Positions 39,625 through 64,000 of a stretch of 64,000 nucleotides of DNA are shown piece by piece; within the stretch, counting starts at the first letter, position 1, and the number at the start of each line of letters is the position of its first letter. This DNA comes from Streptomyces sp. 846.5. GTDB taxonomy: Bacteria > Actinomycetota > Actinomycetes > Streptomycetales > Streptomycetaceae. The stretch is from contig NZ_SOBN01000001.1 in the NCBI RefSeq assembly GCF_004365705.1, positions 1,814,555 through 1,878,554 of the forward strand, given 5' to 3'. The position numbers were made by a program, and so were the translations under genes. A model generated the notes under the pieces. It was not told the origin of the DNA and ran no database searches. It saw nothing but the letters and a program-made list of their open reading frames with translations.

Positions 39625-39706
39625 TGACCGCGGTGGGTGTGGGGGACCAGCCCGGTCCGAATGACTTCCGGCCACGGTCGACCTGCCCACGATGAGGAGG
39701 GATCTC

Positions 39707-50167: not shown

Positions 50168-53100
50168 CGCTGCTCGCTTCCGTCGGCGGCCGCCTGGCGC
50201 AGCCGGGTCGCCCAGCGCACGCCGGGCCGGTGCCCCTTGGCCTCGAAGGCCGCACCGGCCAGGGCCGCTGATGATGCCGCCGCCTCGGCGTCGCCGAGCA
50301 GCAGGTGGGTGTGGCCCTGGTCGAGTGCGGCAAGGGCCCGCACGACCGGGGAGTCGGTACGGTCCGCCGCCTGCACGGCGCGGGCGGCGGACCGCAGGGC
50401 GGTGGCGCGGTCGCCCCGTGCGGCGGCGATCCGGCCCTGCAGGCCGTCGTGCTCCGCCTTGTCGGCGTACGGGCGCCCGGTGGTCGGTCCGGCCTGTTCC
50501 AGGAGTTCCGCCGCGGTGGACCACCGGCGACGGTCCACCAGGATCCTGGCGGACTCCAGCGCGGTGCTGCCCAGCAGGCTCGCCGCGCCGAGCCGGCGGG
50601 CCACGTCACCTGCTGCGGCGAGCAGTTCGAGGGCCTGGTCGGGCTCGTCGGCCAGGGTCTCCACGGTGGCCGCGAACAGCGGCAGGAACACCTGCGCCTC
50701 CGCGTAGCCCAGCTCGTCGGCCAGCGCGCCGGCCTCCGCCAGGCTCGCACGGGCCGCGTCCCAGTCCTCCTGGAGCGCCAGGAGGACCGCCAGCGGGCAG
50801 TTCAGGGTCACCCGTACGGTGCGCCGTCCGCGTCCGTGCTCGGCGAGCAGGGTCCGGCAGCGGGCCACCGCCGAGGGGACCGGTTCCGGGCCGCGCCACA
50901 GCGAGATGCCCATCGCGCCCAGGGCCGCGGCCCGTTCCGGCTCGCCGTCCGCACGTACCGCGTGGGCCAGGGCCCGGGTCAGAAAGCTGTCCGCCTCGCC
51001 GTGCCGGCCCTGCGCCTGATTCCGCTGCCCGAGCCGCAGGCAGGCCCGGGCCTGCCCGAGTTCGTCCCGGGCGGCTTCGAAGACGGGCAGTGCGGCCAGT
51101 GCCGCGTCGGCCGGCGGCTCCCCGTCGGCGTCCGCAGTCGCCAGGGCCAGCCGGGCGTGGGCGGTCTCGGCCGGGTCGGCCGGGCCGGCCAGGACGCCCC
51201 GGAGCAGGGTGCGGCCCTCGTCGGTGCGCCCGAGGGCCAGCCGGACCTCGCCCAGCCTGCGGGCGGCGGCCATCGCCCCCGGCTCGTCGGGGCGGCCCAG
51301 AGCGACCGCCCGGGCCAGCAGGTCGTCCGCCCAGGGGAGGTCCGACCTGGCGCAGGCCTGGGCCCCGGCACGCCCCAGTTCCCGGGCGGCCCGGCCGCGC
51401 AGCTGCTCGCTCGCGGCGTCGAGCAGTCCGAGTTCGTTGCGGTAGCGGTGCGCACGTTCCAGGTGGCCGCCCACCGCCGCCGGTCCGGCGGCGCGGACGG
51501 ACGGCAGTCCGGCGGCCTTCTCGTGGCCCTCGGCCCTGGCCCGCTTGGACATGCAGGCGTAGGTGACCTCCTGGACCAGACCGCTGCTGAACCGGAAGGC
51601 GACCTGTCCGGGCCGGTTCCGGCGGTCCGGTTCCACCAGCCGCCGTCGGCTGAGCCGGAGCAGGGCGTCGCGCACCCCCTCCGGCACGCCCGCGGGTCCC
51701 GTGCCGCACAGTCCGGCCAGCTCACCCGGCGCGAACTCGCGGCCGATCACCGACGCCAGGTCAAGCGCGCTGCGGTCGCCGGGTTCGAGTGCGTCGATCC
51801 GGGCGCCGAGCACGGCCTGGACCGTGAGCGGCAGCCCGTCCGGCGACCCGGTCTCGGCCTCGGCCGCCAGCAACTGCTCCAGGTGCAGTGGATTGCCGCC
51901 GGCCCGCTCCAGCAGCCGCGTCGGCGCAGCGCACAGGTGGGCGCTGACGTCCGCCAGTTCGGCGGCCAGCAGCGCGGACTCGTCGTCCGAGAGGCCGGAC
52001 AGCAGCAGCGACCGGTTCGGGGCGCTGACCGGTTCGGGCCGGGCGTCCGGTGGTTCGGGCCGGGACAGGCAGACCACCAGGACGGCGGCCGGGCCGAGTT
52101 CGACCACCAGCCGGTCGAGCAGGTCCAGCAGCAGCGGCCCGGCCCAGTGGCAGTCGTCGACCACCAGCACCACCGGCCGCCGGGCTGCCAGCACCGTCAG
52201 CATCCGGACCAGTGCGGCGCTGGTCTCCTCCACCGAGGGGTTCGGCGTGCCGTCGAGCAGCAGTCCGGCGGACAGCACCTGCAACGCCTCGGTCACCTCC
52301 GGCTGCCCGCCGGATCCGACCGGGTCGTCCGGACCGCCGACCGCGAGCAGCGCCGCCACCGCGTCGGCCAGCGGCTGCAGGCTGCCCCGCTCGCCGTACG
52401 GCCGGCAGCGGCCGGCGCCGTGCAGCACCGGCCGGGCGGTCCGCTGGAGCCACTCCCTGAGCAGCCGGGTCTTGCCCTGCCCGGCCTCGCCGTGCACCAG
52501 GACGCGCTGCGCTCCGTGCCCGCGTGCGGCGTCGTCCAGCGCCTGGTCCAGTGCCGCGAGTTCGGAGCGCCGGCCGACGAACCGGACGTCGAAGCGGCGC
52601 AGCAGTTCCGGGTCGTCCTCGCCGAGGCCGAGCAGCCGGTACGCGAGCACCGAGTCGGTCTTCCCCTTCAGCAGCAGCGGCCCGACCGGCTCCGCGCGCA
52701 CGGCGGACCCGGCGGACAGCAGGGTGTCGGCGCCGATCAGGATCTGACCGGCGGCGGCGTTCTGCTCCAGCCGGGCAGCGACGTTGACGGTCTCGCCGGA
52801 GACCAGTGCCTGCCGGGTCGAGGTGTCCGAACCGGCCACCACCTGGCCGGTGTTGATCCCGATCCGGACGTCGAGCCGGACCCCCAGGGTGAGCTGCAGC
52901 TCGGCGTTGAGGGAGTCGAGGGCTTCGAGCATGTCCAGGGCTGCGCCGAGGGCACGGCGGGAGTCGTCCTCGTGCACGGTCGGCACTCCGAACACGGCCA
53001 TCACCGCGTCTCCGATGAATTTCTCCACCGTTCCGCCGTGCACTTCGATCTGATGTTCCATCAGATCGAAGTAGCGCAGGGTGACGGTGCGCAGGGTCTC

Positions 53101-53274
53101 CGGGTCCAGGACGCCGGACAGCGCGGTGGAGCCGACCAGGTCGCAGAACAGCACGGTGACCATCTTCCGGCCCTCCGTCGCCGCGGCCGCGGGGGCCGGT
53201 GCGTACGGTGTCCCGCACGAGGGGCAGAAGCGGGCGTCGGGCGGCAGCGCGAGCCGGCAGGCTGAGCAGGGCAT
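50164..53274 (-). CDS. Zinc-ribbon/class III nucleotide cyclase/STAND ATPase/TPR protein
   Basis: ATG 53274, with GAGGA nine bases upstream, gives 1036 residues; ATG 53289 has no spacing to its purine run. Domains are: a zinc ribbon (C3, C6, C17, C20), a class III adenylate/guanylate cyclase (about 37-215: VLFCDLVGSTALSG and KFIGDAVMAVFG with the two metal Asp, RIGINTGQVVAG), a STAND ATPase (about 230-560: Walker A HGEAGQGKTRLL, Walker B VLVVDDCHWAGP), and helical repeats to the end. This fusion is known in actinobacteria as a cyclase-type signalling ATPase. It sits between the sixth precursor gene and the subtilase gene and may gate protease or maturation activity by ligand sensing. Confidence 0.9.
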   Translation of the reverse strand: MPCSACRLALPPDARFCPSCGTPYAPAPAAAATEGRKMVTVLFCDLVGSTALSGVLDPETLRTVTLRYFDLMEHQIEVHGGTVEKFIGDAVMAVFGVPTVHEDDSRRALGAALDMLEALDSLNAELQLTLGVRLDVRIGINTGQVVAGSDTSTRQALVSGETVNVAARLEQNAAAGQILIGADTLLSAGSAVRAEPVGPLLLKGKTDSVLAYRLLGLGEDDPELLRRFDVRFVGRRSELAALDQALDDAARGHGAQRVLVHGEAGQGKTRLLREWLQRTARPVLHGAGRCRPYGERGSLQPLADAVAALLAVGGPDDPVGSGGQPEVTEALQVLSAGLLLDGTPNPSVEETSAALVRMLTVLAARRPVVLVVDDCHWAGPLLLDLLDRLVVELGPAAVLVVCLSRPEPPDARPEPVSAPNRSLLLSGLSDDESALLAAELADVSAHLCAAPTRLLERAGGNPLHLEQLLAAEAETGSPDGLPLTVQAVLGARIDALEPGDRSALDLASVIGREFAPGELAGLCGTGPAGVPEGVRDALLRLSRRRLVEPDRRNRPGQVAFRFSSGLVQEVTYACMSKRARAEGHEKAAGLPSVRAAGPAAVGGHLERAHRYRNELGLLDAASEQLRGRAARELGRAGAQACARSDLPWADDLLARAVALGRPDEPGAMAAARRLGEVRLALGRTDEGRTLLRGVLAGPADPAETAHARLALATADADGEPPADAALAALPVFEAARDELGQARACLRLGQRNQAQGRHGEADSFLTRALAHAVRADGEPERAAALGAMGISLWRGPEPVPSAVARCRTLLAEHGRGRRTVRVTLNCPLAVLLALQEDWDAARASLAEAGALADELGYAEAQVFLPLFAATVETLADEPDQALELLAAAGDVARRLGAASLLGSTALESARILVDRRRWSTAAELLEQAGPTTGRPYADKAEHDGLQGRIAAARGDRATALRSAARAVQAADRTDSPVVRALAALDQGHTHLLLGDAEAAASSAALAGAAFEAKGHRPGVRWATRLRQAAADGSEQR

Positions 53275-53289
53275 GGTCGGCGTCCTCAT

Positions 53290-53361: not shown

Positions 53362-53562
53362 TCAGAAGAGCGCGCCGCCGGCGATCTCGCTGTGCGCCTG
53401 CACCTCTGGCCCGAGCTCGTCGAGTCGGCCCTTGATGTCGATGAGGACGGCGAGTTCCTGCGGGGTGAGGGCCCGGAGCACCTCCCGCTGTTCGTCGTTG
53501 AGCGCGTCCAGGGCGAAGCCCGCCGTCTGCAGACGGTCGAGCGTGGTGTCGTGGTTGTTCAT
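53362..53562 (-). CDS. RiPP precursor peptide with PEVQAH motif
   Basis: ATG 53562 overlaps the upstream HDO-gene stop (ATGA) and GGGAGG is six bases before the start, giving 66 residues. The long helical leader reads ALNDEQREVLRALTPQELAV, then IDIKGRLDELGPEVQAH. A nine-residue tail SEIAGGALF follows PEVQAH. PEVxAH is shared with the five peptides at 59-60 kb, but this core has no Cys and only one Ser. It is probably the substrate of the radical SAM and HDO-like enzymes encoded immediately upstream, with chemistry at Leu, Phe, Ala or Gly rather than at Cys. That it is a precursor is inferred from size, motif and position. Confidence 0.75.
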   Translation of the reverse strand: MNNHDTTLDRLQTAGFALDALNDEQREVLRALTPQELAVLIDIKGRLDELGPEVQAHSEIAGGALF

Positions 53563-54242
53563 CGTGAACCTCCCGGCTGGGCTGCGAGTTGGCGGAACAG
53601 CTGGGTGACGCCGTGTGCCGTCCGCAGGGCGCTGACGGCCACCGCGGCCTCCTGCTCCGGCGTCAGCGGCAGGGCGTCCAGCAGGCCGTACAGCGAGGCG
53701 ACATGCCCGGAGTCGAGTGCGGCGTGGTCGCGCACGGTACGGAACGCCGCGCCGGGCAGGCCGGTCTGCCGGGTGAGCCGGTCGGCGAGCCAGGGCGCCG
53801 GGGCGTTGCCCTCCAGGACCAGGATGTAGCCGAGCAGCGTGACCGGGTGGTGGTGCTCGATCCAGTAGTACTGCGCGCCGGCCAGCTCGGCGACGACCGG
53901 GGCGGGCAGCCGGCTCAGCACCGCCGCCGGATCGGCTCCGGCCGCTGCCAGGTCGTCCAGCAGCCAGGCGTCGTGGCCGCGTTCCTCCCCGGCGTGCTCC
54001 TCGAAGTACCGCCGCAGCGGGTCCGCCAGCGGGTCGCCGGGCGGCAGTTCGGCACAGCGCAGGGCGGCCCGTTCCAGCAACGGCACCGAGGCGCGGATCA
54101 GCGCGTGCATGGTGCAGAGGTACTCGACATAGCGCGGGCGGAGGCCGGTCGGCCGCCACAGCGCGGCGCTCGCGGCGCGCAGCGAGGGTGCGGTCAGGCC
54201 GAGTTTGATCCGCAGTGCGGTGGAGGCGGCCGGCCGGCTCAT
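53559..54242 (-). CDS. Heme-oxygenase-like putative diiron enzyme (HDO superfamily)
   Basis: ATG 54242 overlaps the stop of the radical SAM gene, giving 227 residues. It is all-helical with the metal-site pattern of HO-like diiron oxidases: Glu40 in RYVEYLCTMHALIR, Glu87-x2-His90 in AGEERGHDAW, Glu144 in YILVLEGN, and Asp177-x2-His180 in HAALDSGHVASLYG. YYWIEHHHPVTLLG sits between them. Members cleave or oxidise amino-acid side chains and C-N or C-C bonds. Placed between a radical SAM gene and a precursor gene with ATGA overlaps on both sides, it very likely modifies that precursor. The exact reaction cannot be predicted. Confidence 0.82.
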   Translation of the reverse strand: MSRPAASTALRIKLGLTAPSLRAASAALWRPTGLRPRYVEYLCTMHALIRASVPLLERAALRCAELPPGDPLADPLRRYFEEHAGEERGHDAWLLDDLAAAGADPAAVLSRLPAPVVAELAGAQYYWIEHHHPVTLLGYILVLEGNAPAPWLADRLTRQTGLPGAAFRTVRDHAALDSGHVASLYGLLDALPLTPEQEAAVAVSALRTAHGVTQLFRQLAAQPGGSR

Positions 54243-55315
54243 GCCTGGCTCCCGGCGCCCGACAGGGCCACCAGGTCGGCGTACGGCGCGCATCCGTGCC
54301 GCCTCATCAGCTCCACCGGGCCCGCTTCGGCCTGCCGCCTGGCGGCCTCCCGGTCCAGCAGCTCGCCGACCGGGCCGGAGGCGTCGCGCACGGCGCCCGC
54401 GATCACCTCGGGATGCTCGGACAGGCTCCGGCACCCGGCGCAGTAGCCGGTCGTGCTGGGCTCGGCGCCGTAGCGGGCGTAGAGGTGGGCGGGCCCGACG
54501 GTACGGACCAGCCGCAGCACCGGCGAGGTCAGCGAACGGCGGCGCACCGTGCCCCAGTCGTCCTCGGCGATGTGGCCGAGGACCAGGTGGTCCGGGGCCG
54601 GCCTGCGGTCGACGGTCTGCTGGTTGCAGCAGGCCAGCACCGTCCCGTCGAAGGCCACCACGGGCCAGGCGGCCATCGCGCACGGCAGTGCGCGGTCCGG
54701 GTCCGGGCGGTGGGCGGTCGCCGCGGCCCAGGATGCGGCCCGGCCCACCGGGCGGATCTGATTGACCAGCATGGGCACCCGGTCGTCGAACTCCCGCCGG
54801 ACGGCGGCGGTCACGTCGGCGAGGTAGGGGTCCTCCGGTCCGGTGCCGGTGAGATGGAAGCTGGCGGGGATCCCCGCGTCGAGCACCCGGTGCACCGCGC
54901 TGAAGACGTCCGCGCGGGGCACCTCCCGTTCGTGGAAGGCGTCCAGGCTCGCCGAGAAGTGGTCGACGGCGCTGATCGCCCGCATGATCCGTGCCGGGAT
55001 CCGTCCGCCCCGGGCGAAGAACATCCCGCTCAGCAGGGCGCTACGGGCGCCGGCTGCCCGGACCAGGGCGGCCAGTTCGCCCACCAGGCCGGGGAGCAGC
55101 AGCGGCTCCCCACCGGTCAGCAGCACCACCTCGGGCCGGTCCTCGGCGCTGAACGAGTCGGCGAACCTCAGCAGCTGCACCGGGTCGGGCCCCTCACCGG
55201 CCATGGTGGACGACGTGGAGCAGTGCGCACAGCTCAGCGGGCAGCTCCGGGTGAGCGTGAGCAGCAGGCCCGCACCGGGGACGGGGCGCAGCCCGACCAG
55301 CTCGGCAAGTTCCAT
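54239..55315 (-). CDS. Radical SAM enzyme with SPASM-like C-terminus
   Basis: The start chosen is ATG 55315, where GGAAGG is six bases upstream, giving 358 residues. ATG 55360 is possible; GTG 55417 lies inside the SARP-like repeats and is unlikely. The cluster motif is TRSCPLSCAHCSTSS (C25, C29, C32), with VVLLTGGEPLLLPG. The C-terminal third has CAMAAWPVVAFDGTVLACCN and GYCAGCRSL, Cys that could hold an auxiliary cluster. It is the first gene of a coupled set (radical SAM, HDO, precursor) and should install a radical-derived link or epimerisation on the PEVQAH peptide. It is distinct in sequence from the radical SAM at 57910. Confidence 0.88.
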   Translation of the reverse strand: MELAELVGLRPVPGAGLLLTLTRSCPLSCAHCSTSSTMAGEGPDPVQLLRFADSFSAEDRPEVVLLTGGEPLLLPGLVGELAALVRAAGARSALLSGMFFARGGRIPARIMRAISAVDHFSASLDAFHEREVPRADVFSAVHRVLDAGIPASFHLTGTGPEDPYLADVTAAVRREFDDRVPMLVNQIRPVGRAASWAAATAHRPDPDRALPCAMAAWPVVAFDGTVLACCNQQTVDRRPAPDHLVLGHIAEDDWGTVRRRSLTSPVLRLVRTVGPAHLYARYGAEPSTTGYCAGCRSLSEHPEVIAGAVRDASGPVGELLDREAARRQAEAGPVELMRRHGCAPYADLVALSGAGSQA

Positions 55316-55394: not shown

Positions 55395-55423
55395 CGGGTT
55401 GGCCGACGGTTTGTCACCGGTAT
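55395..55423 (-). promoter_or_regulatory. SARP-type triple repeat before the second radical SAM gene
   Basis: On the minus strand ATACCGG (55417-55423), AAACCGT (55406-55412) and CAACCCG (55395-55401) lie at exact 11-base steps, matching the peptide promoters near 60 kb. The expected -10 position (55382-55387) reads CTCCGG, a poor match, so the promoter may be weak or strictly activator-dependent. Confidence 0.6.
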
Positions 55424-55432
55424 GTCCCAAGC

Positions 55433-56575
55433 TCACCAGGGGGCGACGGCTCGACGTCCGGTCACCGCGCCCTCGACGAGGTCGGCGGCGACCGCCTCGC
55501 TCTTGCAACGGCGGAGCCAGGCGCCCGCCTCGCCCACGCGCCGCCGCAGCACCGGGTCCGCCGCGGCCGAGGCGACGGCCGCGGCCCCACCTGTCCCGGG
55601 AACGCGGACGGCCGTGCCGGCCCGTACGCAGGCCGCGGCGAGGACGAACTGCTCCGAGCCCTCCGGCGCCAGCAGCAGCGGGCGGTCGGCGAGCAGCGCA
55701 CCCAGGACAGGTGCGGTGGTCCCGTTGGTGACCACCGCACAGGAACGGCGGATCAGCGGGGCCATCCAGGGCTTGCGGACCACGGTGATGTCGGCACCGT
55801 CGGCCCGTTGGGCCGGACCGGACCGGCCCAACTCGACCACGGCCTGGTACGGGCCCGCAGTGAAGGTCTCGTTCAGCCAGGGCCAGAGACCGCTGCGGCC
55901 GAACGTCCGCCCCAGATGGACGTAGACGACCGGTTTGCCGACCCGGTCCAGCGCCGCATCGATCGCCGCATCGGCGGCGCCGTCGGGTGCGGGCTCCCAA
56001 CTGCACGGCCCGACGCGGTGGATGCCCGCAGGCAGCCGCGCGTCCGGGACCTCGAAGTCGGGGTGGCCGCGCAGCAGCAGCCCCGCTCCGGACAGGTCAC
56101 GCTGCCGCGAGCGGACCGACCGCGCGCCGAGCCCCGCCTCTGCGCGCAGCTCGGTGTAGCCGCGGTGGGTCTCCCGGAGTCTCCACTGGCGCAGCTCCAG
56201 GTCGCCCGGCGCGTCGCGGCCACCGCCCCGGTACGGCCACAGGTGCGCCGCCAGTCCGAGCACCACGACCGGGACGTCCAGGACTTCGGCCGCGACCAGG
56301 GCTCCGTGGCAGAGCACGCTGGTCACCAGCACATCGGCGCGCGAGGCACGGGCCGCCACCACGACGGAGCGGTACTGCTCGACGCCGTGGCGGTACCAGC
56401 GCGAAGCCAGGAACGCCTCCGGTTCGGCGGCCTGGACGGTCGGCAGCCCGGCCTCGGGAGTCTCAGGGCCGAGCAGCTGCACATCGTGGCCGCGACGCCG
56501 CAGTTCCCGGCCGACGGCGACGGCCGGATACCGGAAGCCCGGATCGCCGAGTGGGCAGAGCAGTACGTTCATCAC
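55433..56575 (-). CDS. GT-B glycosyltransferase (GT1/MGT-like)
   Basis: The 380-residue protein starts MMNVLLCPLGDPGFRYPAVA, the N-terminal acceptor domain of a GT1 enzyme. The C-terminal sugar-nucleotide half has VVYVHLGRTFGRSG, KPWMAPLIRRSCAVVTNGTT and ALLADRPLLLAPEGSEQFVL, which parallels the GT1 donor motif. The usual HGG triad before the Thr is altered (TNGTTAPVLGA), so the catalytic details may differ. It sits between the exporter and the second radical SAM genes on the same strand, implying glycosylation of a modified peptide or of an intermediate. RiPP glycosyltransferases of this fold exist but are uncommon. Confidence 0.85.
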   Translation of the reverse strand: MMNVLLCPLGDPGFRYPAVAVGRELRRRGHDVQLLGPETPEAGLPTVQAAEPEAFLASRWYRHGVEQYRSVVVAARASRADVLVTSVLCHGALVAAEVLDVPVVVLGLAAHLWPYRGGGRDAPGDLELRQWRLRETHRGYTELRAEAGLGARSVRSRQRDLSGAGLLLRGHPDFEVPDARLPAGIHRVGPCSWEPAPDGAADAAIDAALDRVGKPVVYVHLGRTFGRSGLWPWLNETFTAGPYQAVVELGRSGPAQRADGADITVVRKPWMAPLIRRSCAVVTNGTTAPVLGALLADRPLLLAPEGSEQFVLAAACVRAGTAVRVPGTGGAAAVASAAADPVLRRRVGEAGAWLRRCKSEAVAADLVEGAVTGRRAVAPW

Positions 56576-56621: not shown

Positions 56622-57881
56622 CTACACGACGGGCTCCGGCGCCCGCTGCTCGGCAGCGTCCGGGCTGCCGCCCGAACCGCTGAGGAACGTGCTGCTCCGG
56701 AGCATCGCCGGGCCGTTCACCAGCGTGACGAGACCGATGAGCAGGGCCAGCAGCAGCCAGGTCGGGGCCTGCCCCACGAGTTCAAAGCCCGTCCCGGCCA
56801 GAACCGGGCCGAGTGCGGACAGCCCGGCCATCATCAGGCTCGCGGCGGCGCTGACCCGTCCTATCAGCTCCTTGGGCACCCCGCCCAGCAGAGCCTGGCC
56901 GATGACCACGACAGCGGCCGGGGAGAGCGCCAGCAGCAGCACCAGGACCGTCCCGGCCCCCCAGGCGGACAGGGGGAACACCGCGAAGAGGACGAGACCG
57001 CCGGTCCAGCAGGCCCCGATGACCACCAGCAGCCGGGCCGGGCCCAGCAGCCGCACCAGACGGGAGGAGACCGCTGCTCCGGCCAGCCCGCCGACTCCGG
57101 CGCAGGCCATCACCGCGCCGATCACGGTGCCGCTCGTGCCGTGGTCGCGCAGGGAGACCACGATCGCCACGTCGGTCGCCGCGCCGACCAGGTTGATCAC
57201 CGCGGCGAACAGCAGGACCCGCTGCAGCATCGGCTGGCGGGCCAGCCAGCGCAGGCCCGCAGTCAGCCGCCGGTCCGCCGGACCGCCCACCGCCGCCTCG
57301 GCCGGCCGTCGGGACACGCCCAGGATCAGCACGGCGGACAGACCGTAGGAGGCCGCGTCGCAGGCGAACGGCACCACGGGGCCGACCGTGAACAGCCACC
57401 CGCCGAGCAGCGGACCGATCAGCGACGCCGCCGCACTGTTGGTCTGGCTGCGCCCGAGCGCCTCGGGGAGCTGGTTCTCGGACACCAGGTCGCGGACCAT
57501 GACGCTCGCCGCCGGCGAGAAGAAGGTGTCCGACACCGTGCAGACCACGGCGGCCAGGAGCAGCAGCGGGAAGTAGGCGGCGTGCACGACCACCATCAGT
57601 GCGACACCTCCCATGGCGGCCAGGCAGACCAGGTCGCAGCCGAGCAACAGGCGGCGCCGGTCGACGTGGTCGGCCACCTGCCCGGCCGGGAGTTGGCACA
57701 GGGTGCGGGCGAGCAACGTGCAGGAGGCGATCAGACCCGCCTGGGCGGCGCTCCCGTGCAGGCTGAGCACCAGCAGCGGGAACGCGAGGAAGGACAGGTA
57801 GGAGCCGAGGATCGAGACGGCCCGGGCCGCCGAGTAGCGCTGGAAGTCGCCATTGCGGCGCAGGCCGTTCATCGAGCTCAT
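56622..57881 (-). CDS. MFS exporter
   Basis: A 419-residue major-facilitator protein with twelve hydrophobic helices (first at about 22-42, last near 375-395). Family landmarks are RAVSILGSYLSFLAFPLLVL at helix 1, QLPAGQVADHVDRRRLLLGC at the loop between helices 2 and 3, LVSENQLPEALGRSQTNSAA after helix 4, and GAVMACAGVGGLAGAAVSSR in helix 8. This is the subgroup of multidrug-like antiporters. It is 28 bases after the radical SAM gene and 46 bases before the glycosyltransferase gene, so it is the likely exporter of the RiPP product or a self-protection pump. No peptidase-containing ABC transporter is present in the window. Confidence 0.9.
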   Translation of the reverse strand: MSSMNGLRRNGDFQRYSAARAVSILGSYLSFLAFPLLVLSLHGSAAQAGLIASCTLLARTLCQLPAGQVADHVDRRRLLLGCDLVCLAAMGGVALMVVVHAAYFPLLLLAAVVCTVSDTFFSPAASVMVRDLVSENQLPEALGRSQTNSAAASLIGPLLGGWLFTVGPVVPFACDAASYGLSAVLILGVSRRPAEAAVGGPADRRLTAGLRWLARQPMLQRVLLFAAVINLVGAATDVAIVVSLRDHGTSGTVIGAVMACAGVGGLAGAAVSSRLVRLLGPARLLVVIGACWTGGLVLFAVFPLSAWGAGTVLVLLLALSPAAVVVIGQALLGGVPKELIGRVSAAASLMMAGLSALGPVLAGTGFELVGQAPTWLLLALLIGLVTLVNGPAMLRSSTFLSGSGGSPDAAEQRAPEPVV

Positions 57882-57909: not shown

Positions 57910-59103
57910 TCAGAGCCGTCCGGTCGCGTGGAGGTGGTCCATCAGGGCCGCGTCGACGGTGTCCCGGAACTCGGCCAGGGCCGCCTTGGACTCGCTGTAC
58001 TGGTAGTCGTCGCCGCAGGCGACCCAGCGCCCCTCGGTCTGTGCGGACGGCAGGTAGCCGTCACCGACCGTGCCGACCTCCCAGCCCGGCTTGCCCGCCG
58101 TCTCCCAGCAGCTGTAGAGGGTGCCGTCGGCGTTCACGACGGCGCCGTGCCGGCCGTTCTCGGCCGAGCAGAAGGTGCACGGCGTGTGTGCCTGCGGCCG
58201 CCGCACGGTGAAACCGTGCTCCAGCGCCCGGATCTGCCACTGCGTCATCAGCGCGGCGAACTCGCCGGTGCGCATCAGCTCGTTGGCGTAGCCCAGGCCC
58301 ACGTCGCCGACCAGTTCGAAGTAGAGGGAGCAGCGCGAGGTGTCGAGCGAGGCGGCGAGCCGGTCGACCAGCTCCGCCATGCCGAGGTAGTTGAGGTGCG
58401 AGACATTGACCCGCAGACTCCAGTGCAGGTCGGTGACGTCCATGCTCCGGGCCATGTTGGCGACGATGGTGTCGAAGGTGCCGCCCCCGGACCGCCGGAC
58501 CCTGATCGAGTCGTGCTCGGAGCGGTCGCCGTCAAAGGTGATCTGAACCGACGTCAGGCCCGCGTCCGCCAGCTGCCGGGCCAGAGCCGGGCTGAGCAGC
58601 GTGCCGTTGCTGGTCATGCTGGCGGCGACCAGGCCGAGGTCCGCGGCACGGGTCAGCAGTTCGGCGCAGCCGCGTGGGTTCAGCAGCGGCTCGCCGCCGA
58701 AGAGCAGCAGCGAGAGCCGGCTCTGCCCGGCCTCGGCCATCCGCCGCGCGGTGAAGTCGAGGACCGAGCCGATCGTCTCCGAGGTGAGCCTGGAGTGCGT
58801 GATCCGGGGCGGCCGGGTCCCCCCGGTGGGGTCCTGGGCCGTGTTCTGGAAGCAGTAGCCGCAGCCGAGGTTGCAGTCGGTGCTGGTCAGCACGGTCAAT
58901 CCGTAGGCACGGCGGTCGTGTTGGTCGTACAGGCCCGCCTCGCGCAGATGGCGCTCGGTCCCCGGATTGATGCTGCCGTCCGGACCGACCTGGTGGGGCT
59001 TGAGCCGGGCGTACCCGCCCCCGGCTCCCAGGCACCACCACCCCTGGGAGGACTTCAGCAGGCGTACCGGGCTGTCGGCCTGCACTGTCTCTGTTGCGTG
59101 CAA
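57910..59103 (-). CDS. Radical SAM/SPASM peptide-modifying enzyme
   Basis: The start is TTG 59103 with GGAGG six bases upstream, giving 397 residues. The N-terminal 65 residues (LLKSSQGWWCLGAGGGYARL) are outside the barrel and may bind leader peptide. The cluster motif is STDCNLGCGYCFQN (C77, C81, C84), then LLLFGGEPLLNPRG and SMTSNGTLLS. The SPASM region has CTFCSAENG and VVNADGTLYSCWE near residues 310-340. It resembles enzymes that make thioether or C-C bonds in RiPPs. It lies 31 bases after peptide 1, whose core has one Cys, so the five Cys-containing peptides are its expected substrates, shared or in competition with LanKC. Confidence 0.92.
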   Translation of the reverse strand: MHATETVQADSPVRLLKSSQGWWCLGAGGGYARLKPHQVGPDGSINPGTERHLREAGLYDQHDRRAYGLTVLTSTDCNLGCGYCFQNTAQDPTGGTRPPRITHSRLTSETIGSVLDFTARRMAEAGQSRLSLLLFGGEPLLNPRGCAELLTRAADLGLVAASMTSNGTLLSPALARQLADAGLTSVQITFDGDRSEHDSIRVRRSGGGTFDTIVANMARSMDVTDLHWSLRVNVSHLNYLGMAELVDRLAASLDTSRCSLYFELVGDVGLGYANELMRTGEFAALMTQWQIRALEHGFTVRRPQAHTPCTFCSAENGRHGAVVNADGTLYSCWETAGKPGWEVGTVGDGYLPSAQTEGRWVACGDDYQYSESKAALAEFRDTVDAALMDHLHATGRL

Positions 59104-59134: not shown

Positions 59135-59266
59135 TCACGTTTCCAACATGAGCGGGCACTTCAGGTTGAAGGAGTCGTCCTCGCCGAGGACGCCGTGGGC
59201 GACGACCTCGGGTTCGTCGTCCGTCCCGTCCTCGATCCGGGGCTTCTCGTCATCCGTGTACGCCAT
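59135..59266 (-). CDS. PEVVAH precursor peptide 1
   Basis: ATG 59266, with GAGAGGA at a normal distance, gives 43 residues. The leader MAYTDDEKPRIEDG and the motif EPEVVAH match the other peptides. The core is GVLGEDDSFNLKCPLMLET, with Ser-x4-Cys and Cys seven residues from the end. It is the copy nearest the radical SAM gene (31-base gap). Unlike copies 2-5 it has no SARP-type promoter of its own; a strong hairpin (59311-59347) separates it from peptide 2, so it and the radical SAM gene may depend on read-through. Confidence 0.82.
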   Translation of the reverse strand: MAYTDDEKPRIEDGTDDEPEVVAHGVLGEDDSFNLKCPLMLET

Positions 59267-59310
59267 CGCGGTGTCCTCTCGGTGCTGTCGCCGTCGGTGA
59301 GCAGGTGCGG

Positions 59311-59347
59311 CCGGGCCGCCGGACGGAGGGTCCGTTCGGCGGCCCGG
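59311..59347 (-). terminator. Hairpin between peptides 2 and 1
   Basis: A 17-bp stem with one mismatch or wobble (59311-59327 with 59331-59347) and a three-base loop. As a partial terminator it would set the ratio of peptides to downstream enzymes. Confidence 0.75.
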
Positions 59348-59368
59348 GCCGAGGGAGATGAGCGATCG

Positions 59369-59509
59369 TCAGATCTTGACGTAGACCGTGCACTTGCCGT
59401 CTGCGTCGAGTGTGGCGTCGTCGATCCCGTGGGCGACGACCTCGGGCGCTTCCTGTCCCTCCAGCGCCTCGTCCTCGACCTGGGGCTTCTCGTCGTCGAT
59501 GTGCGCCAT
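59369..59509 (-). CDS. PEVVAH precursor peptide 2
   Basis: ATG 59509 gives 46 residues. The leader MAHIDDEKPQVEDEALEGQE is followed by APEVVAH, and the core is GIDDATLDADGKCTVYVKI. A single Thr precedes the single Cys (Thr-x6-Cys), and six residues follow Cys, ending in a hydrophobic residue. It has its own SARP-type promoter at 59561-59602 and a terminator after it. The core tail CTVYVKI alternates polar and hydrophobic residues like a beta strand. Confidence 0.85.
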   Translation of the reverse strand: MAHIDDEKPQVEDEALEGQEAPEVVAHGIDDATLDADGKCTVYVKI

Positions 59510-59560
59510 GGTTCCGTCCTCTCATTGCTGTCGCGGACGGCCGTCCGCCGACTGCCAGCA

Positions 59561-59602
59561 ACGCTAGGAGCCACCGGTTCGGCGACGGTACGACGTCGGT
59601 AT
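59561..59602 (-). promoter_or_regulatory. SARP-type operator/promoter of peptide 2
   Basis: Minus strand: ATACCGA (59596-59602), GTACCGT (59585-59591), GAACCGG (59574-59580) at 11-base steps, then seven bases and the -10 TAGCGT (59561-59566). The last repeat to -10 distance is that described for SARP activators. Confidence 0.8.
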
Positions 59603-59642
59603 GCGAGGGCTTAACACCCGACCCCGCGGCAGACAGAGACAG

Positions 59643-59683
59643 AGCCGGGCCGTCGGACGGAGGTTCCGTCCGACGGCCCGGCT
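59643..59683 (-). terminator. Perfect 18-bp hairpin after peptide 3
   Basis: AGCCGGGCCGTCGGACGG (59643-59660) pairs perfectly with 59666-59683 over a five-base loop, just after the peptide 3 stop. Confidence 0.85.
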
Positions 59684-59702
59684 TGCGTGTACCTCGCGCC
59701 TG

Positions 59703-59831
59703 CTAGATCTCGACGAAGATCTTGCACTCGAATTCGGAGAGCTCAGCGTCGTCGACCGCGTGGGCGACGACCTCCGGCGCATCCTGCGCCTCGTCCTCGA
59801 CCTGGGGCTTCTCGTCATCGGTCTGCGCCAT
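59703..59831 (-). CDS. PEVVAH precursor peptide 3
   Basis: ATG 59831 gives 42 residues. The leader MAQTDDEKPQVEDEAQD is identical to that of peptide 4. APEVVAH is followed by the core AVDDAELSEFECKIFVEI, which has Ser-x3-Cys and the CKIFVEI tail, Cys at position -7. It is preceded by its own SARP-type promoter and followed by a perfect hairpin. Confidence 0.86.
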   Translation of the reverse strand: MAQTDDEKPQVEDEAQDAPEVVAHAVDDAELSEFECKIFVEI

Positions 59832-59882
59832 GGTGCCGTCCTCTCGTCACTGCCGCCGACGGCCGTCCGCCGACTGCCAGCA

Positions 59883-59924
59883 ACGCTAGGAGCCACCGGT
59901 TCGGCCACGGTACGACGCCGGTAT
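59883..59924 (-). promoter_or_regulatory. SARP-type operator/promoter of peptide 3
   Basis: ATACCGG (59918-59924), GTACCGT (59907-59913), GAACCGG (59896-59902), then seven bases and TAGCGT (59883-59888) on the minus strand. Confidence 0.82.
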
Positions 59925-59964
59925 GCGAGGGCTTAACACCCGACCCCGCGGCAGACAGACACAG

Positions 59965-60005
59965 AGCCGGACCGTCGGGGAGAGGTTCCGACCGACGGCC
60001 CGGCT
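59965..60005 (-). terminator. Hairpin after peptide 4
   Basis: AGCCGGACCGTCGG (59965-59978) pairs with 59992-60005 with one mismatch across a 13-base loop. It is the diverged counterpart of the hairpin after peptide 3. Confidence 0.65.
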
Positions 60006-60023
60006 TGGGTGTGCCCGCGCCTG

Positions 60024-60155
60024 CTAGAGCTCGACGAAGATCTTGCAGTCCATTTCGCCGAGTGTGGCGTCGTCATCGACCCCGTGGGCGACGACCTCCG
60101 GCGCATCCTGCGCCTCGTCCTCGACCTGGGGCTTCTCGTCATCGGTCTGCGCCAT
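60024..60155 (-). CDS. PEVVAH precursor peptide 4
   Basis: ATG 60155 gives 43 residues. The leader is the same as in peptide 3. The core is GVDDDATLGEMDCKIFVEL: Thr-x5-Cys, with the tail CKIFVEL one residue different from peptide 3. Its promoter region is almost identical to that of peptide 3, showing recent tandem duplication followed by divergence concentrated in the core. Confidence 0.86.
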   Translation of the reverse strand: MAQTDDEKPQVEDEAQDAPEVVAHGVDDDATLGEMDCKIFVEL

Positions 60156-60206
60156 GGTGCCGTCCTCTCGGTCCTGTCGCCGACGGCCGTCCGCCGACTG
60201 CCAGCA

Positions 60207-60248
60207 ACGCTAGGAGCCACCGGTTCGGCCACGGTACGACGCCGGTAT
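60207..60248 (-). promoter_or_regulatory. SARP-type operator/promoter of peptide 4
   Basis: ATACCGG (60242-60248), GTACCGT (60231-60237), GAACCGG (60220-60226), then seven bases and TAGCGT (60207-60212) on the minus strand. Confidence 0.82.
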
Positions 60249-60274
60249 GCGAGGGCTTAACGGGTCCGCTGCGA

Positions 60275-60433
60275 CTAGAACTCGTTGTAGTAGTTGCACT
60301 GCGGAATGCCGATGGCGCTCGTCATGTGCGCCTCGACCTCCGGCCGTTCGTCAGCGCCTTCGACTTCCTCCAGCGCCGGGACGGCCTGGTTCTCGGGCTG
60401 GTCGGTGCTGGAGGGCTGGGTGTTCTCCGCCAC
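60275..60433 (-). CDS. PEVEAH precursor peptide 5
   Basis: The start is GTG 60433, six bases after AGGAG; ATG 60448 (MQEIT) would bury that motif. The product has 52 residues. The leader differs from the others (AENTQPSSTDQPENQAVPAL) but keeps ERPEVEAH. The core is MTSAIGIPQCNYYNEF: Thr-Ser then six residues to a single Cys at -7, tail CNYYNEF with two Tyr. It is the most diverged member, next to the SARP gene, whose 3-prime end overlaps this peptide's operator. Confidence 0.84.
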   Translation of the reverse strand: MAENTQPSSTDQPENQAVPALEEVEGADERPEVEAHMTSAIGIPQCNYYNEF

Positions 60434-60482: not shown

Positions 60483-60524
60483 ATGCTAGAAGCGGCAGGT
60501 TCGACAACGGTCAACCACCGGTAT
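60483..60524 (-). promoter_or_regulatory. SARP-type operator/promoter of peptide 5
   Basis: ATACCGG (60518-60524), TGACCGT (60507-60513), GAACCTG (60496-60502), then seven bases and the -10 TAGCAT (60483-60488). The sequence around it is unrelated to the tandem units, so the shared geometry is not just duplication. It overlaps the last codons of the SARP gene. Confidence 0.8.
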
Positions 60525-62340
60525 GGCAGCAGTGGCGTGCGTAGAGATGCGTGAAGTGCGGCAGTGAGTACAACGCGGCGTGCGCCGTCACTTCGGCCTC
60601 CGGTGAGACGACCGCCCCCTGCTCGATCAGCCACTCCAACTGCCGCTGCGCCCGGACGTGATCGCGCCCCAGTGCCGCAGAGGCGTCTCGCACGGTGAAC
60701 GCCTGCGCCAACGGCACCGTCGCCAATTGCAGCAGAGCGGACCGGGCCGATTCGTCGAACTGCCGCCACTCGTCGGCGACACGCGATCGTACGTCGTTGT
60801 CGCCGACCACCAACTCGCCGAGCACGGAGCGGGGATCGGCCAGCCGGGCGGCGTACTCGTCGAGCGGCAGGTGTCGCAGCACGGCGAGCTTGAGGCCGGC
60901 CACCCGGACCGCCAGCGGCAGCAACCCGCAGGCCGCGACGATGCGTTCGGCGGCTGTGACGTCGCCGTTCACCCTGTCTCCTCCGACGATGCGGCCCAGC
61001 AGCTCCAGGGCTTCGGCCGGGGCGTACGGCGGCACGTCGATCCGGTGGGCCGAGGCGAGCCCGGCGAGCCGGGTTCGCGCGGTGACGATGGCCGCGCTCG
61101 GTCCGGTGCCTGCCAGCAGGTGCCGGACGGCCGCCTCGTCGGGCGCGTCGTCGAGCACCAGCAGAACCTTTCGGTCCGCCAGCCAGGTCCGCCAGATCGC
61201 GGCGGCCTGCTCCGCGGTGGCCGGCATCGCCCCGGCCAGGCCCGCGTACTGAAGCAGCTCGGCGGTCAGCGAGGCGAGCGGCCGAGGACTCCCGTCGTCC
61301 GCGCGGAGCCGTACGCAGATCCGGCCGTCGGGGAACTCGGACTCCAGCCGGTGCGCCGCACGCACGGCGAGCGAGGTCTTGCCCACCCCCGCCGGACCGA
61401 CGGCCACACTGACCGTGCCGCCACTGGCGGCCTGCTCCGTCAACTCCCGCATCTGGCACTCGCGGCCGGTGAAGTCCGGGACGTCAGGCGGCAGTACGAC
61501 CGGCGCGCTGCGCCGCCTGCCCGCACGGGCCGGCACCGGACCGGCGACGGAACCGCCCTCGTCGGCCAGGATCGAGCGGTACACGGACTCCAGTGCCGGG
61601 CTCGGTGACAGACCCAGACTGTGGGAGAGGTGCTGGCGTATGTCGTCGTAGGCGGCCAATGCCTCGGCCCGGCGCCCCGAGCGGTGCAGAGCCGTCATGT
61701 GCACGGCGCGCAGGCGCTCCCGCAACGGATGCGCCTCCACCAGGTCACTGGTCACCTCGGCGACCTGCTGGGGTTGCCCCGCGGCCAGTGCGGCCTCGGC
61801 CCAATCCTCGCTGACCGCGAGGTAGCGGACGGTCAGGCGGTCGGCCTCCTCCCGGAGCGGCTCCGAGCAGCCCAGCTCCATCAGCGGCTGCCCTGTCCAC
61901 AGATTCCGTGCCTGCCCCAGGAGTTGGGCAGCGCTGGTGGTGTCGCCCCCGGCAGCCGCCGCACGGCCGGCTCGGACCAGCCCACTGAACTGCAGGGAAT
62001 CCAGCTCCGATTCGGCCGGGCGGATCAGATAGCCCCCCGACCGGTGCTGGATCCGGTCGTCTGCTCCTGCACCGGCTTCGGCCAGCGTCCTGCGCAGCGC
62101 GGAGATGTACACCTGGAGGTTCTTGCGGGCGGTGCGCGGGGGTTCGTCGGCCCACACCGCCTCGGTCAGCAGGTCGACGGAGACCACCACGCCGGGGCGG
62201 CACAGCAGCATGGCCAGGACCAACCGCTGTTTGAGTGGCCCGAGTTCAAGCGGGTGACCGTCGGCCTCGGCGGACAGCGGGCCCAGAATGGAGAACCGCA
62301 GTGCCCCCGGACACGGCTCGGGGTCCGGCAGGTCAGGCAT
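60511..62340 (-). CDS. SARP/AfsR-type regulator with NB-ARC ATPase
   Basis: The 609-residue protein overlaps the upstream TPR gene by eight bases. The N-terminal OmpR-type winged helix (about 14-100: LRFSILGPLSAEADGHPLEL, VDLLTEAVWADEPPRTARKN) and the BTAD helical domain (about 105-255) define a SARP. An NB-ARC ATPase follows (Walker A VGPAGVGKTSLAV, Walker B VLLVLDDAPDEAA, GLLPLAVRVAG). The C-terminus ends soon after the ATPase, without the long TPR part of AfsR. It is the obvious activator for the five 11-bp-periodic operators nearby and at 55.4 kb, and perhaps for lanKC at 39.6 kb. Binding is inferred from geometry. Confidence 0.92.
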   Translation of the reverse strand: MPDLPDPEPCPGALRFSILGPLSAEADGHPLELGPLKQRLVLAMLLCRPGVVVSVDLLTEAVWADEPPRTARKNLQVYISALRRTLAEAGAGADDRIQHRSGGYLIRPAESELDSLQFSGLVRAGRAAAAGGDTTSAAQLLGQARNLWTGQPLMELGCSEPLREEADRLTVRYLAVSEDWAEAALAAGQPQQVAEVTSDLVEAHPLRERLRAVHMTALHRSGRRAEALAAYDDIRQHLSHSLGLSPSPALESVYRSILADEGGSVAGPVPARAGRRRSAPVVLPPDVPDFTGRECQMRELTEQAASGGTVSVAVGPAGVGKTSLAVRAAHRLESEFPDGRICVRLRADDGSPRPLASLTAELLQYAGLAGAMPATAEQAAAIWRTWLADRKVLLVLDDAPDEAAVRHLLAGTGPSAAIVTARTRLAGLASAHRIDVPPYAPAEALELLGRIVGGDRVNGDVTAAERIVAACGLLPLAVRVAGLKLAVLRHLPLDEYAARLADPRSVLGELVVGDNDVRSRVADEWRQFDESARSALLQLATVPLAQAFTVRDASAALGRDHVRAQRQLEWLIEQGAVVSPEAEVTAHAALYSLPHFTHLYARHCCHTGG

Positions 62341-62836
62341 GGGTCAGCTCCGGCATCAGTTCGTGCACGCGTGCGAGGTATCCCGGGCCGGCCGCCAGGC
62401 AGACCAGCAGATCCGCCCGGGCGTCCTCGGCCCTCCCCAGGTCGATCAGACAACTGGCGCGCTGCAACCGGGCGTCCGGGTCCTCGACCTCGGCCAGGAT
62501 CGCGTCCAGCAGCTCCACGGCCAGGTCGTGCCGGGTGATGGCGTGATAGACGACAGCCAGGTCGAAGCGGATCCCCGGAGCATCGGACAGCGTTCGGGCG
62601 CGCTCCAGGTCGGCGATGGCTCCCGCCGGATCACCGCTCCGGTGGGCCAGCGCGCCCCGCAGTGCCCACGCCCTGGCGCAGCCGGGATCCACGGCCAGGG
62701 CCGCCGAGAACGCGGCCGCCGCTCCGGCGGGTTCGTCGTTGGCCTCCAGCAACTGACCCCTGAGACAGAGCAGATCAGGGTCGCCCGGATGCGCGCCGGT
62801 CATGAGTGCGGCATGCGGTTCGTCGCCGTCGGTCAT
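62333..62836 (-). CDS. TPR protein
   Basis: ATG 62836 gives 167 residues made almost entirely of tetratricopeptide repeats (about residues 18-155): PDLLCLRGQLLEANDEPAGA, CARAWALRGALAHRSGDPAG, RFDLAVVYHAITRHDLAVEL. No enzyme domain or signal is seen. Its stop lies eight bases inside the SARP start, so the two are co-translated; it may be a detached TPR module that works with the SARP, which lacks the usual C-terminal TPRs. This split of an AfsR-like protein is an inference from order and domains. Confidence 0.8.
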   Translation of the reverse strand: MTDGDEPHAALMTGAHPGDPDLLCLRGQLLEANDEPAGAAAAFSAALAVDPGCARAWALRGALAHRSGDPAGAIADLERARTLSDAPGIRFDLAVVYHAITRHDLAVELLDAILAEVEDPDARLQRASCLIDLGRAEDARADLLVCLAAGPGYLARVHELMPELTHA

Positions 62837-62928: not shown

Positions 62929-64000
62929 TCAGCCCACGCCGACCGGGAGCAGCGCGTCCAGGCTGCCCTTGCCCTCGAAGACGGTGTGCAGGGCGAGCAG
63001 GATGCCTGCCGAGCCGGAAGCGAGGTCGGCGGAGAGCCGGGTCAGGCCGGCCCCGGGAAAGAACAGGCCGCCCTCCCTGCGCACCGCGTGCCAGGAGAAT
63101 CTGCGGATCGACCTCAGCAGCTCCTGGTCCTGACCGGGTTCGCCGAGCAGGCCCAGGATCGCGACCAGCCCCGCCCGGCCCCCGAACAATCCCGGCTCCC
63201 GGACGAACTCGGAGGCGCAGACCGGACGGACGGACGCCACCAGCAAGCTGAGCACGGGGTCCTCGGCATGGGTCAGGTACTCCCGCGCCACCAGCGCGAT
63301 CCCACCGCTGCCCGTTTTCAGGTAGGCCAGGTGGCGGTGGCCGTACTTCGCCTGGACCGTGCCGTCGGGCATGGTGACGCAGTGCCCGAGGTCCCACGCC
63401 AGGGCGGCCCGCGCCGCCGCCAGGTACCGCTGCTCCCCGGTGATGCGGTGGAGCCGGAGCTGGAGCAGGGCGGAACCGCTGAAGCCGTCCAGGAATCCGG
63501 CGGTGGACGGAAGCCGCAGGCCGTCCTGGACTCCCTCCCGCAGCAGGGTGTCGAGTCGTTCCGCGGTTCGTACGGCCTCGTCGAGCAGTGTCGCGTCGCC
63601 GGTGCGCTGGGCGAAGTGGCACAGGTTGAGCGCCACTCCGGCCTGTCCGCCGAGGAGTCCGACCCGTATCGGGTCGCCGGCCGCCCGGGCTCGCGCGAGC
63701 ACCTCCAGGGCCTCCTCGCGACGGCCGAGTTCCTCCAGCACGGCGGCGGCGCCGTGCAGTCCGTCGTACAGCCCGTAGCCCCGCTCGGCCCGGGCGCGCC
63801 GGGCCGAGTCCACCAGCCAGTCGACGTACTGCTCGGGCACCGTGCCGCCGGCCCGGTGCAGCGCGAGCAGCACGCCGGCCGCGCCGTGCGCGAGGGTGTG
63901 GCCGCCGGAGGCGAAGACCGACCAGTGGGCCGGGAACAACCGGTCGGCGCGGTCCGGGGTCGCGCAGGCGTGGATGCCCGCGACCAACTCATCGCGTACG
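62929..64000 (-). CDS. Second LanKC-like synthetase, C-terminal cyclase part (cut by window edge)
   Basis: The minus-strand frame is open to the right edge; 356 residues are visible and the N-terminus lies outside. The visible part is the LanC-like alpha/alpha toroid, with repeated GxxG turns: GGHTLAHGAAGVLLALHRAG, GLYDGLHGAAAVLEELG, GLLGGQAGVALNLC, GFLDGFSGSALLQL, YLKTGSGGIALVA, GLFGGRAGLVAIL and ADLASGSAGILLAL. The Cys-Cys-His zinc site of class I, II and IV enzymes is absent, as in class III LanKC. The lyase and kinase domains are presumed to precede it. It lies upstream of the SARP and the Cys-containing peptides, which are its likely substrates. Confidence 0.82.
   Translation of the reverse strand, partial: VRDELVAGIHACATPDRADRLFPAHWSVFASGGHTLAHGAAGVLLALHRAGGTVPEQYVDWLVDSARRARAERGYGLYDGLHGAAAVLEELGRREEALEVLARARAAGDPIRVGLLGGQAGVALNLCHFAQRTGDATLLDEAVRTAERLDTLLREGVQDGLRLPSTAGFLDGFSGSALLQLRLHRITGEQRYLAAARAALAWDLGHCVTMPDGTVQAKYGHRHLAYLKTGSGGIALVAREYLTHAEDPVLSLLVASVRPVCASEFVREPGLFGGRAGLVAILGLLGEPGQDQELLRSIRRFSWHAVRREGGLFFPGAGLTRLSADLASGSAGILLALHTVFEGKGSLDALLPVGVG

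Follow-up and report, generated by a model that had tools for sequence, protein, structure and literature searches.

The window analyzed here, a 64,000-nucleotide stretch of the 9.03-Mb genome of Streptomyces sp. 846.5 (contig C1, NZ_SOBN01000001.1, positions 1814555 to 1878554), contains an array of five short genes, P1 to P5, adjacent to a gene for a radical S-adenosylmethionine (SAM)/SPASM-type maturase, rSAM1 (Table 1). The array (59135 to 60433, minus strand) codes for tandem acidic peptides of 42 to 52 amino acids (aa), in which a sequence-only reading of this DNA had seen precursors with an acidic leader, a shared motif, and diversifying cores. Its local description holds: four of the five peptides start with M-A-x-x-DDEKP, and all five possess a PEV(V/E)AH motif and a single Cys followed by exactly six residues. 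A Ser or Thr upstream of the Cys, also noted there, is present in each peptide, with 4, 6, 3, 5, and 6 intervening residues in P1 to P5, respectively, so that its spacing is not constant. Spacers described as near copies are indeed so (identity at 176/192 and 116/118 aligned positions) while the cores diverge; P3 and P4 have identical leader DNA (72/72 nucleotides [nt]) and core DNA matching at 46 of 57 positions. Searches of NCBIfam, Pfam, and PHROGs retrieved no model describing P1 to P5, a single Pfam match (E value of 0.2) being noise. They had no NCBIfam match at all, including to the aroma-sacti peptide domain NF045560, and they lack the LxLQ-type leader motif that is a feature of class III lanthipeptides. 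Short genes with a conserved leader and a variable core beside a radical SAM maturase are the arrangement expected of a ribosomally synthesized and posttranslationally modified peptide (RiPP) matured by such an enzyme, and P1 to P5 are most likely precursors of ribosomal peptides for the adjacent rSAM1.

The cysteines of rSAM1 at positions 77, 81, 84, 258, 309, 312, and 363 occur in all 61 aligned family members, and C332 occurs in 58 of them; the radical SAM motif and the auxiliary cysteines would bind the Fe-S clusters. Among the 25 best of 65 NCBIfam families, the closest models are those of RiPP maturases (TIGR04463, CefB, geopeptide, PapB, and Clo7bot), and the best match in a sequence search of the PDB is CteB (5wgg; E value of 4.3e-9). 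An AlphaFold2 model from a 43-row alignment (predicted local distance difference test [pLDDT] score of 89.1, predicted template modeling [pTM] score of 0.88) predicts three strands (residues 13 to 18, 21 to 26, and 31 to 34) and a helix (47 to 55) preceding the radical SAM barrel, and this N-terminal β-β-β-α stretch may bind the leader. The top Foldseek match of the model is likewise CteB (5why; E value of 1.9e-15), which VIA-align superimposes with a Z score of 24.9 over 348 residues (root mean square deviation of 4.7; aligned span, residues 10 to 393); these structural lists cover Foldseek-ranked entries, and absence from them carries no meaning. The C terminus of MftA (Cys-Gly-Val-Tyr) resembles the core pattern described below; the mycofactocin comparison was set aside, no MftC model being among the 25 best of the 65 NCBIfam matches to rSAM1.

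A scan with rSAM1 retrieved 65 loci, mostly from Streptomyces, Kitasatospora, and other actinobacteria, including the distant members L063 (34%), L069 (23%), and L070 (26%). A scripted search detected acidic peptides with V-x-A-H and a Cys in 53 of these, 52 of the rSAM1 type and 1 (L052) of the type linked to LanKC, the class III lanthionine synthetase. As the loci had been retrieved by rSAM1 alone, the pattern of P1 to P5 is not due to chance. Of the 12 loci outside the 53, L017 has the repeats in a form that fails the start-site filter, L013 has V-V-A-Q, L062 has V-V-L-H-A, L054, L055, and L058 lack the motif (see below), and the contigs of L026, L029, and L050 are short or truncated; no V-x-A-H and Cys peptide was found in the three distant loci. 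Many precursors repeat the unit of V-x-A-H and Cys core two or more times, e.g., PEVVAHSASNVAWCGVHQE, with V-x-A-H in each unit; weak, short PHROGs matches for one repeat precursor were disregarded.

In a compiled set comprising the window and 40 loci, we obtained 84 V-x-A-H units, 71 of them distinct. All 84 contain a Cys, and most core units contain a single one; homologues lacking the Cys, which the sequence-only reading would have taken as refutation, were thus not encountered in this set, although three exception-like loci are considered below. The second residue after the Cys (+2) is V, I, or L in 58 of the 71 distinct units, and the third (+3) is N (32 units), H (18), Y (8), Q (7), or F (4) in 69, the remaining two having M and S. 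In P1 to P5, +3 is Y, F, or M; elsewhere it is mostly N, H, or Q. In more distant rSAM1 loci, the cores read CGVYDKE and CPLY, and +3 is Y in 12 and F in 1 of 16 Cys stretches drawn from distant loci, two peptides of the congeneric locus L082, and the additional precursors P7 and P8 (see below). An Asp at +4 (Cys-x3-Asp) is present in 3 of the 71 units and in the distant CGVYDK-type cores and is absent from P1 to P5. A Cys seven residues from the end was ruled out as a family-wide rule: when the final peptide from each of the 41 sources is compared, that of the window alone has six residues after its last Cys, the others having 5 to 13 (mode, 8). A usable search rule is V-x-A-H ... C-x-[VIL]-[NHQYF] next to a gene of the rSAM1 type. 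Mapped on a tree of 57 rSAM1 proteins, the +3 residue requires 8 changes, against a mean of 20.0 in shuffled labels (0 of 200 shuffles as low); this distribution is only consistent with coevolution, since relatedness alone could produce it.

Because the 65 loci had been picked by rSAM1, whole genomes provide an independent test. rSAM1 (E value of ≤1e-60) is present in 38 of 297 genomes of the family and 2 of 14 of the genus (the window's own included) and had no match at 1e-40 in a plasmid collection. The precursor profile matches 45 of the 297 genomes, and 30 of these have rSAM1. All of the remaining 15 were inspected at the matching stretches. In G137, rSAM1 is cut by a contig end. In eleven, LanKC is accompanied by PEVEAH-type precursors that carry VLDLQ and, in most cases, C-x-S-x-x-S cores, and rSAM1 was not found in the stretches examined. 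G135 has VLDLQ-type precursors with no LanKC within the 12 kb examined, G001 encodes a related peptide, PEVEAH...LGLQ, close to a LanKC of weak similarity (35%), and the match in G149 looks spurious. Thus, 13 of the 45 genomes carry class III lanthipeptide-type relatives in place of rSAM1, which indicates that at least two types of precursor use the PEVxAH leader. These counts address the other refuting condition named in the sequence-only reading, homologues without modifying enzymes: rSAM1 accompanies the precursors in the 30 genomes and, at the contig end, in one more, the 13 and the spurious-looking case being those without it. Across genomes, precursor and maturase co-occur as in RiPPs matured by radical SAM enzymes.

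The window further contains five sites with a triple WACCG repeat at an 11-bp period, upstream of each of P2 to P5 and of a second radical SAM gene, rSAM2, against 0.02 expected (five were reached in 0 of 100 shuffles). None was found before P1, and another precedes P8 (reached by 4 of 200 shuffles). Three direct repeats of this period are the sequence signature of a Streptomyces antibiotic regulatory protein (SARP) regulon: an excerpt of PMC5930380 describes the SARP PimR as binding three heptameric direct repeats with 4-nt spacers, 11 bp being the classical SARP unit. By this analogy, the AfsR/SARP-type regulator encoded in the window would bind these operator-like sites. In related loci, we counted 75 raw matches (overlaps counted separately) against 0 in reversed sequences, and of 36 merged sites, 22 are located no more than 300 bp upstream of a precursor. 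The position of the site upstream of rSAM2 suggests that this gene starts at 55315 rather than at 55417; the alignment of its relatives with the long form begins near residue 35.

The array is larger than five genes. In L071, the stretch that continues the cluster past the window end, three more single-Cys precursors (P6 to P8) lie about 3 kb beyond the window, upstream of a major facilitator superfamily (MFS) gene and the LanKC gene that the window end truncates; one likewise ends in a Cys and six residues (CAIYYHS). P6 resembles the VLDLQ...CISVLS peptides linked to LanKC elsewhere and the GSVLDLQGLGKDMDKSEMSCISFVSS peptide of L082, which argues that the LanKC module has its own substrate here; it is probably a sister module that acts on P6. 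P7 and P8 have PEFIAA in place of PEVxAH, yet their C-x-I-Y cores resemble the rSAM1 peptides. Among the loci examined, LanKC and rSAM1 are combined only in the window's cluster, in L052, and in L082, from the same genus. L082 has all three modules of the window's cluster together (those of rSAM1, LanKC, and the aroma-sacti peptide), and its rSAM1 precursors have CGVFDKD-type cores, several per peptide.

On the basis of these observations, we consider it moderately probable that P1 to P5 are RiPP precursors matured by rSAM1 through a Cys thioether pathway. The SARP regulator would activate P2 to P5 from separate operators, and P1, which lacks one, might be cotranscribed with rSAM1. rSAM1 would recognize the acidic/PEVxAH leader, perhaps through its small N-terminal domain, and a 5'-deoxyadenosyl radical together with an auxiliary Fe-S site would form a thioether between the single Cys and a residue shortly downstream. 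We propose +3 as the most likely acceptor, which would close a ring of some four residues (C-x-[VIL]-Z). A glycosyltransferase (GT) encoded nearby may attach a sugar, a protease, plausibly the S8 subtilase, would cleave near PEVxAH, and the MFS protein would export the product. The thioether is the best-supported, rather than a demonstrated, chemistry, because the closest match of rSAM1 in both sequence and structure, CteB, is a thioether synthase. A precedent for a small Cys-to-+3 ring is the Cys31-Gly34 sactionine of the sactipeptide streptosactin (excerpt of PMC8172795), from which the present family differs in its presumed acceptor class.

Several observations weigh against this reading. 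rSAM1 falls far below every NCBIfam cutoff among the 25 best of the 65 families (the best, TIGR04463, at 116 of 525 bits), and the VIA-align list has non-thioether enzymes close behind CteB (anSME at 23.4, ChlB at 22.6, and DesII at 19.4, against 24.9 and 23.6 for the two CteB entries), so that the fold match does not prove a thioether. The proposed acceptor is unusually varied: +3 can be N, H, Y, Q, F, M, or S and, in distant peptides, R, V, L, or T, unlike in PapB, for which a strict Cys-x3-Asp core motif is described in an excerpt of the literature; a PapB-like motif, absent from P1 to P5, was rejected for them. In the distant relatives encoded in L093 (8133 to 8291), L094 (8676 to 8819), and L095 (8450 to 8602), all on the minus strand, a V-x-A-H stretch is located C-terminal to the Cys core, with no further Cys behind it; there it may be a follower, cleavage, or spacer signal rather than a leader, and rSAM1 thus perhaps does not recognize V-x-A-H. 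The precursors of L054, L055, and L058 possess a Cys core but lack V-x-A-H, and 8 of the 38 rSAM1 genomes have no precursor-profile match, although the four of these that were read (G005, G090, G107, and G120) have diverged precursors. By a strict scan, only 22 of the 53 loci have an operator-like site ≤300 bp upstream of a precursor, and 31 do not. As a separate observation, L054 and L055 (Micromonospora) have precursors upstream of rSAM1 that repeat a CG[IV]QIGA core three times; the stretches examined there yielded no S8 subtilase.

The most serious alternative, which we nevertheless regard as doubtful, is that rSAM1 modifies P1 to P5 by epimerization or by a C-C bond near +2/+3 and that the Cys is used otherwise, e.g., for S-glycosylation by the GT. 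The fold of rSAM1 is also that of the epimerase EpeE and of further enzymes that form no thioether, +3 is nearly always Asn, His, Gln, or aromatic, and a GT relative lies in 36 of the 47 rSAM1 loci of ≥20 kb (full-flank loci; tblastn, E value of ≤1e-4). Set against this are the other 11 full-flank loci, in which no GT was found and among which L016 to L018, L048, and L066 keep the Cys, and the identity of the closest match as a thioether synthase. More generally, the Cys is kept in loci where no GT, DUF6895 protein, or LanKC was found. That the peptides act unmodified, as signals or regulators, would fit the regulator-like genes frequent nearby (SARP, cyclase-ATPase, and GAF) and is highly improbable in view of the co-occurrence with rSAM1, the conserved Cys, the multicore repeats, and the exporter.

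A lanthionine route, in which LanKC would dehydrate the Ser/Thr preceding the Cys and add the Cys to it, would make P1 to P5 class III lanthipeptide precursors. It draws on the same-strand LanKC gene some 2.5 kb upstream of P5, on the Ser/Thr separated from the Cys by 3 to 6 residues in each peptide, and on the PEVxAH motif common to both precursor types. We judge it improbable: LanKC lies near rSAM1 in 1 of the 65 loci (L052; flanks of up to 10 kb, some contigs being shorter) though the Cys persists, no Ser/Thr lies between the motif (plus one residue) and the Cys in 28 of the 71 distinct units, and the LanKC-linked peptides have V-L-D-L-Q and mostly C-x-S-x-x-S cores, the window's cluster having its own such peptide in P6. 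LanKC, found in 1 of the 47 full-flank loci, is hence dispensable for the Cys family, and lanthionine is ruled out as its common chemistry; of the two chemistries offered by the sequence-only reading, the radical thioether is the likelier. Scarcely more probable is a hybrid maturation, in which a single precursor set would be processed by rSAM1 as well as by LanKC to give mixed products. The C-x-I-Y cores of P7 and P8 within the LanKC array, the three modules of L082, and L052, where LanKC and rSAM1 are adjacent and the sole precursor found has VLDLQ, DVEAH, and two Cys, all point that way, but no other of the 65 rSAM1 loci shows LanKC, nor was rSAM1 detected in the stretches examined around the 11 LanKC genes that have VLDLQ-type precursors.

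The thioether pathway that we favor places the family near several known systems. Like rSAM1, the maturases of ranthipeptides/SCIFF peptides (CteB and PapB) are radical SAM/SPASM enzymes, CteB being the nearest solved structure, and there, too, Cys is the presumed donor to a downstream residue. The presence of a Cys in every core unit of the compiled set is as expected of ranthipeptides and sactipeptides, and so are the radical SAM motif and auxiliary cysteines of rSAM1. In contrast to ranthipeptides, there is mostly one Cys per core unit here, with N, H, Q, Y, or F at +3 instead of Cys-x3-Asp, and unlike the PapB/SCIFF enzymes, rSAM1 lies far below those model cutoffs and is actinobacterial, with GT, MFS, and SARP neighbors. 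Class III lanthipeptides have the PEVxAH leader and the gene neighborhood in common with P1 to P5, but the precursors linked to LanKC additionally have V-L-D-L-Q and, in most cases, a C-x-S-x-x-S core, neither of which P1 to P5 possess. The leader domain of the window's aroma-sacti peptide ends in PEVQAH, a form of the PEVxAH motif, and a similar peptide lies near rSAM1 in 32 of the 47 full-flank loci; it differs in its Cys-free tail and in its own maturation enzymes, rSAM2 and a haem-oxygenase-like enzyme. The end of this peptide reads PEVQAHSEIAGGALF.

A radical SAM RiPP is in itself ordinary; the precursor class, the core rule, and the leader sharing are new within the searches made. No open-access paper could be tied to the precursor family, whose motif and core strings were found in none, and the family, widespread in actinobacteria, appears to be undescribed. 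The leader motif, and here probably also the genetic switch, is shared with two other kinds of peptide product. A bolder and rather speculative proposal is that PEVxAH is a common processing address in actinobacteria, with a single SARP regulon and one S8 subtilase serving three unrelated maturases of one locus (rSAM1 for thioether peptides, LanKC for lanthipeptides, and rSAM2/haem oxygenase for aroma-sacti peptides), rSAM1 forming a thioether ring of four residues from Cys to +3, with N, H, Q, Y, or F as the acceptor. We know of no named radical maturase with this acceptor range. The locus thus defines a broad actinobacterial RiPP family for which the libraries searched have no precursor model, and it is a natural system in which three maturation chemistries seem to use one leader motif, making leader and protease sharing testable. 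Its tandem diversified cores are a ready substrate panel for a probable thioether-forming radical enzyme.

In the direction of transcription, all on the minus strand, the gene order is P8, P7, P6, MFS exporter, LanKC, tetratricopeptide repeat (TPR) protein, SARP regulator, P5 to P1, rSAM1, MFS exporter, putative GT, rSAM2, haem-oxygenase-like enzyme, aroma-sacti peptide, cyclase-ATPase, S8 subtilase, and GAF protein. Besides those of the GT, LanKC, and the aroma-sacti peptide, relatives in the 47 full-flank loci number 41 for the MFS exporter, 40 for the cyclase-ATPase, 39 each for the S8 subtilase and the GAF protein, 30 for SARP, 25 for DUF6895, and 19 for rSAM2. The S8 subtilase is a candidate for the leader protease.

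Table 1. Features of the precursor cluster (positions in the window unless given for L071)
Feature	Position	Strand	Remarks
P1 precursor	59135..59266	-	43 aa, core end CPLMLET
P2 precursor	59369..59509	-	46 aa, core end CTVYVKI
P3 precursor	59703..59831	-	42 aa, core end CKIFVEI
P4 precursor	60024..60155	-	43 aa, core end CKIFVEL
P5 precursor	60275..60433	-	52 aa, GTG start, core end CNYYNEF
rSAM1, radical SAM/SPASM-type maturase	57910..59103	-	397 aa; CxxxCxxC (C77, C81, C84) and C258, C309, C312, C332, C363
Operator-like triple repeat upstream of P5	60498..60523	-	1 mismatch
Operator-like triple repeat upstream of P4	60222..60247	-	0 mismatches
Operator-like triple repeat upstream of P3	59898..59923	-	0 mismatches
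Operator-like triple repeat upstream of P2	59576..59601	-	0 mismatches
Operator-like triple repeat upstream of rSAM2	55397..55422	-	
Hairpin after P3	59643..59683	-	perfect 19-bp arms, GC-rich
Hairpin after P2	59311..59347	-	17-bp arms, GC-rich
P6 precursor	L071 5365-5520	-	VEAHSILDYQ...CLSNISS
P7 precursor	L071 5546-5653	-	in LanKC array; PEFIAA, C-x-I-Y core
P8 precursor	L071 5691-5807	-	first precursor of LanKC array; PEFIAA, C-x-I-Y core
LanKC class III lanthionine synthetase, C-terminal part	62929..64000	-	full gene, L071 1484-4123
TPR protein between LanKC and SARP gene	62333..62815	-	stretch searched; extent approximate
AfsR/SARP-type regulator	60511..62340	-	BTAD, Trans_reg_C, NB-ARC
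MFS exporter	56622..57881	-	profile matches
Putative GT	55433..56575	-	weak MGT and Glyco_transf_4 matches, below cutoffs
rSAM2, aroma-sacti module	54239..55315	-	longer form would start at 55417
Haem-oxygenase-like iron enzyme	53559..54242	-	PF14518
Aroma-sacti peptide	53362..53562	-	NF045560; PEVQAH, then tail SEIAGGALF
Adenylate/guanylate cyclase and AAA ATPase protein	50164..53289	-	
S8 subtilase	49292..50167	-	candidate leader protease
GAF-domain protein	48685..49278	-	

For the DUF6895 proteins encoded beside rSAM1 (e.g., L021, 8931 onward), a search of the window, L071, and L072 gave nothing convincing (lowest E value, 1.2). The term aroma-sacti was found in no open-access paper and DUF6895 in one, as a reference title (PMC13352647) that names a DUF6895 protein as an epimerase in lasso peptide modification. 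By analogy, these neighbors hint at D-residues in the products of their loci. Elsewhere in the window, a second LanKC (39692 to 42340, plus strand; NF038151, 729 bits) is directly followed by a 34-aa open reading frame (42337 to 42441, plus strand), MTQILALQALDTEPEEVAEFCISGSWSHWSIHTA, which looks like that LanKC's own precursor.

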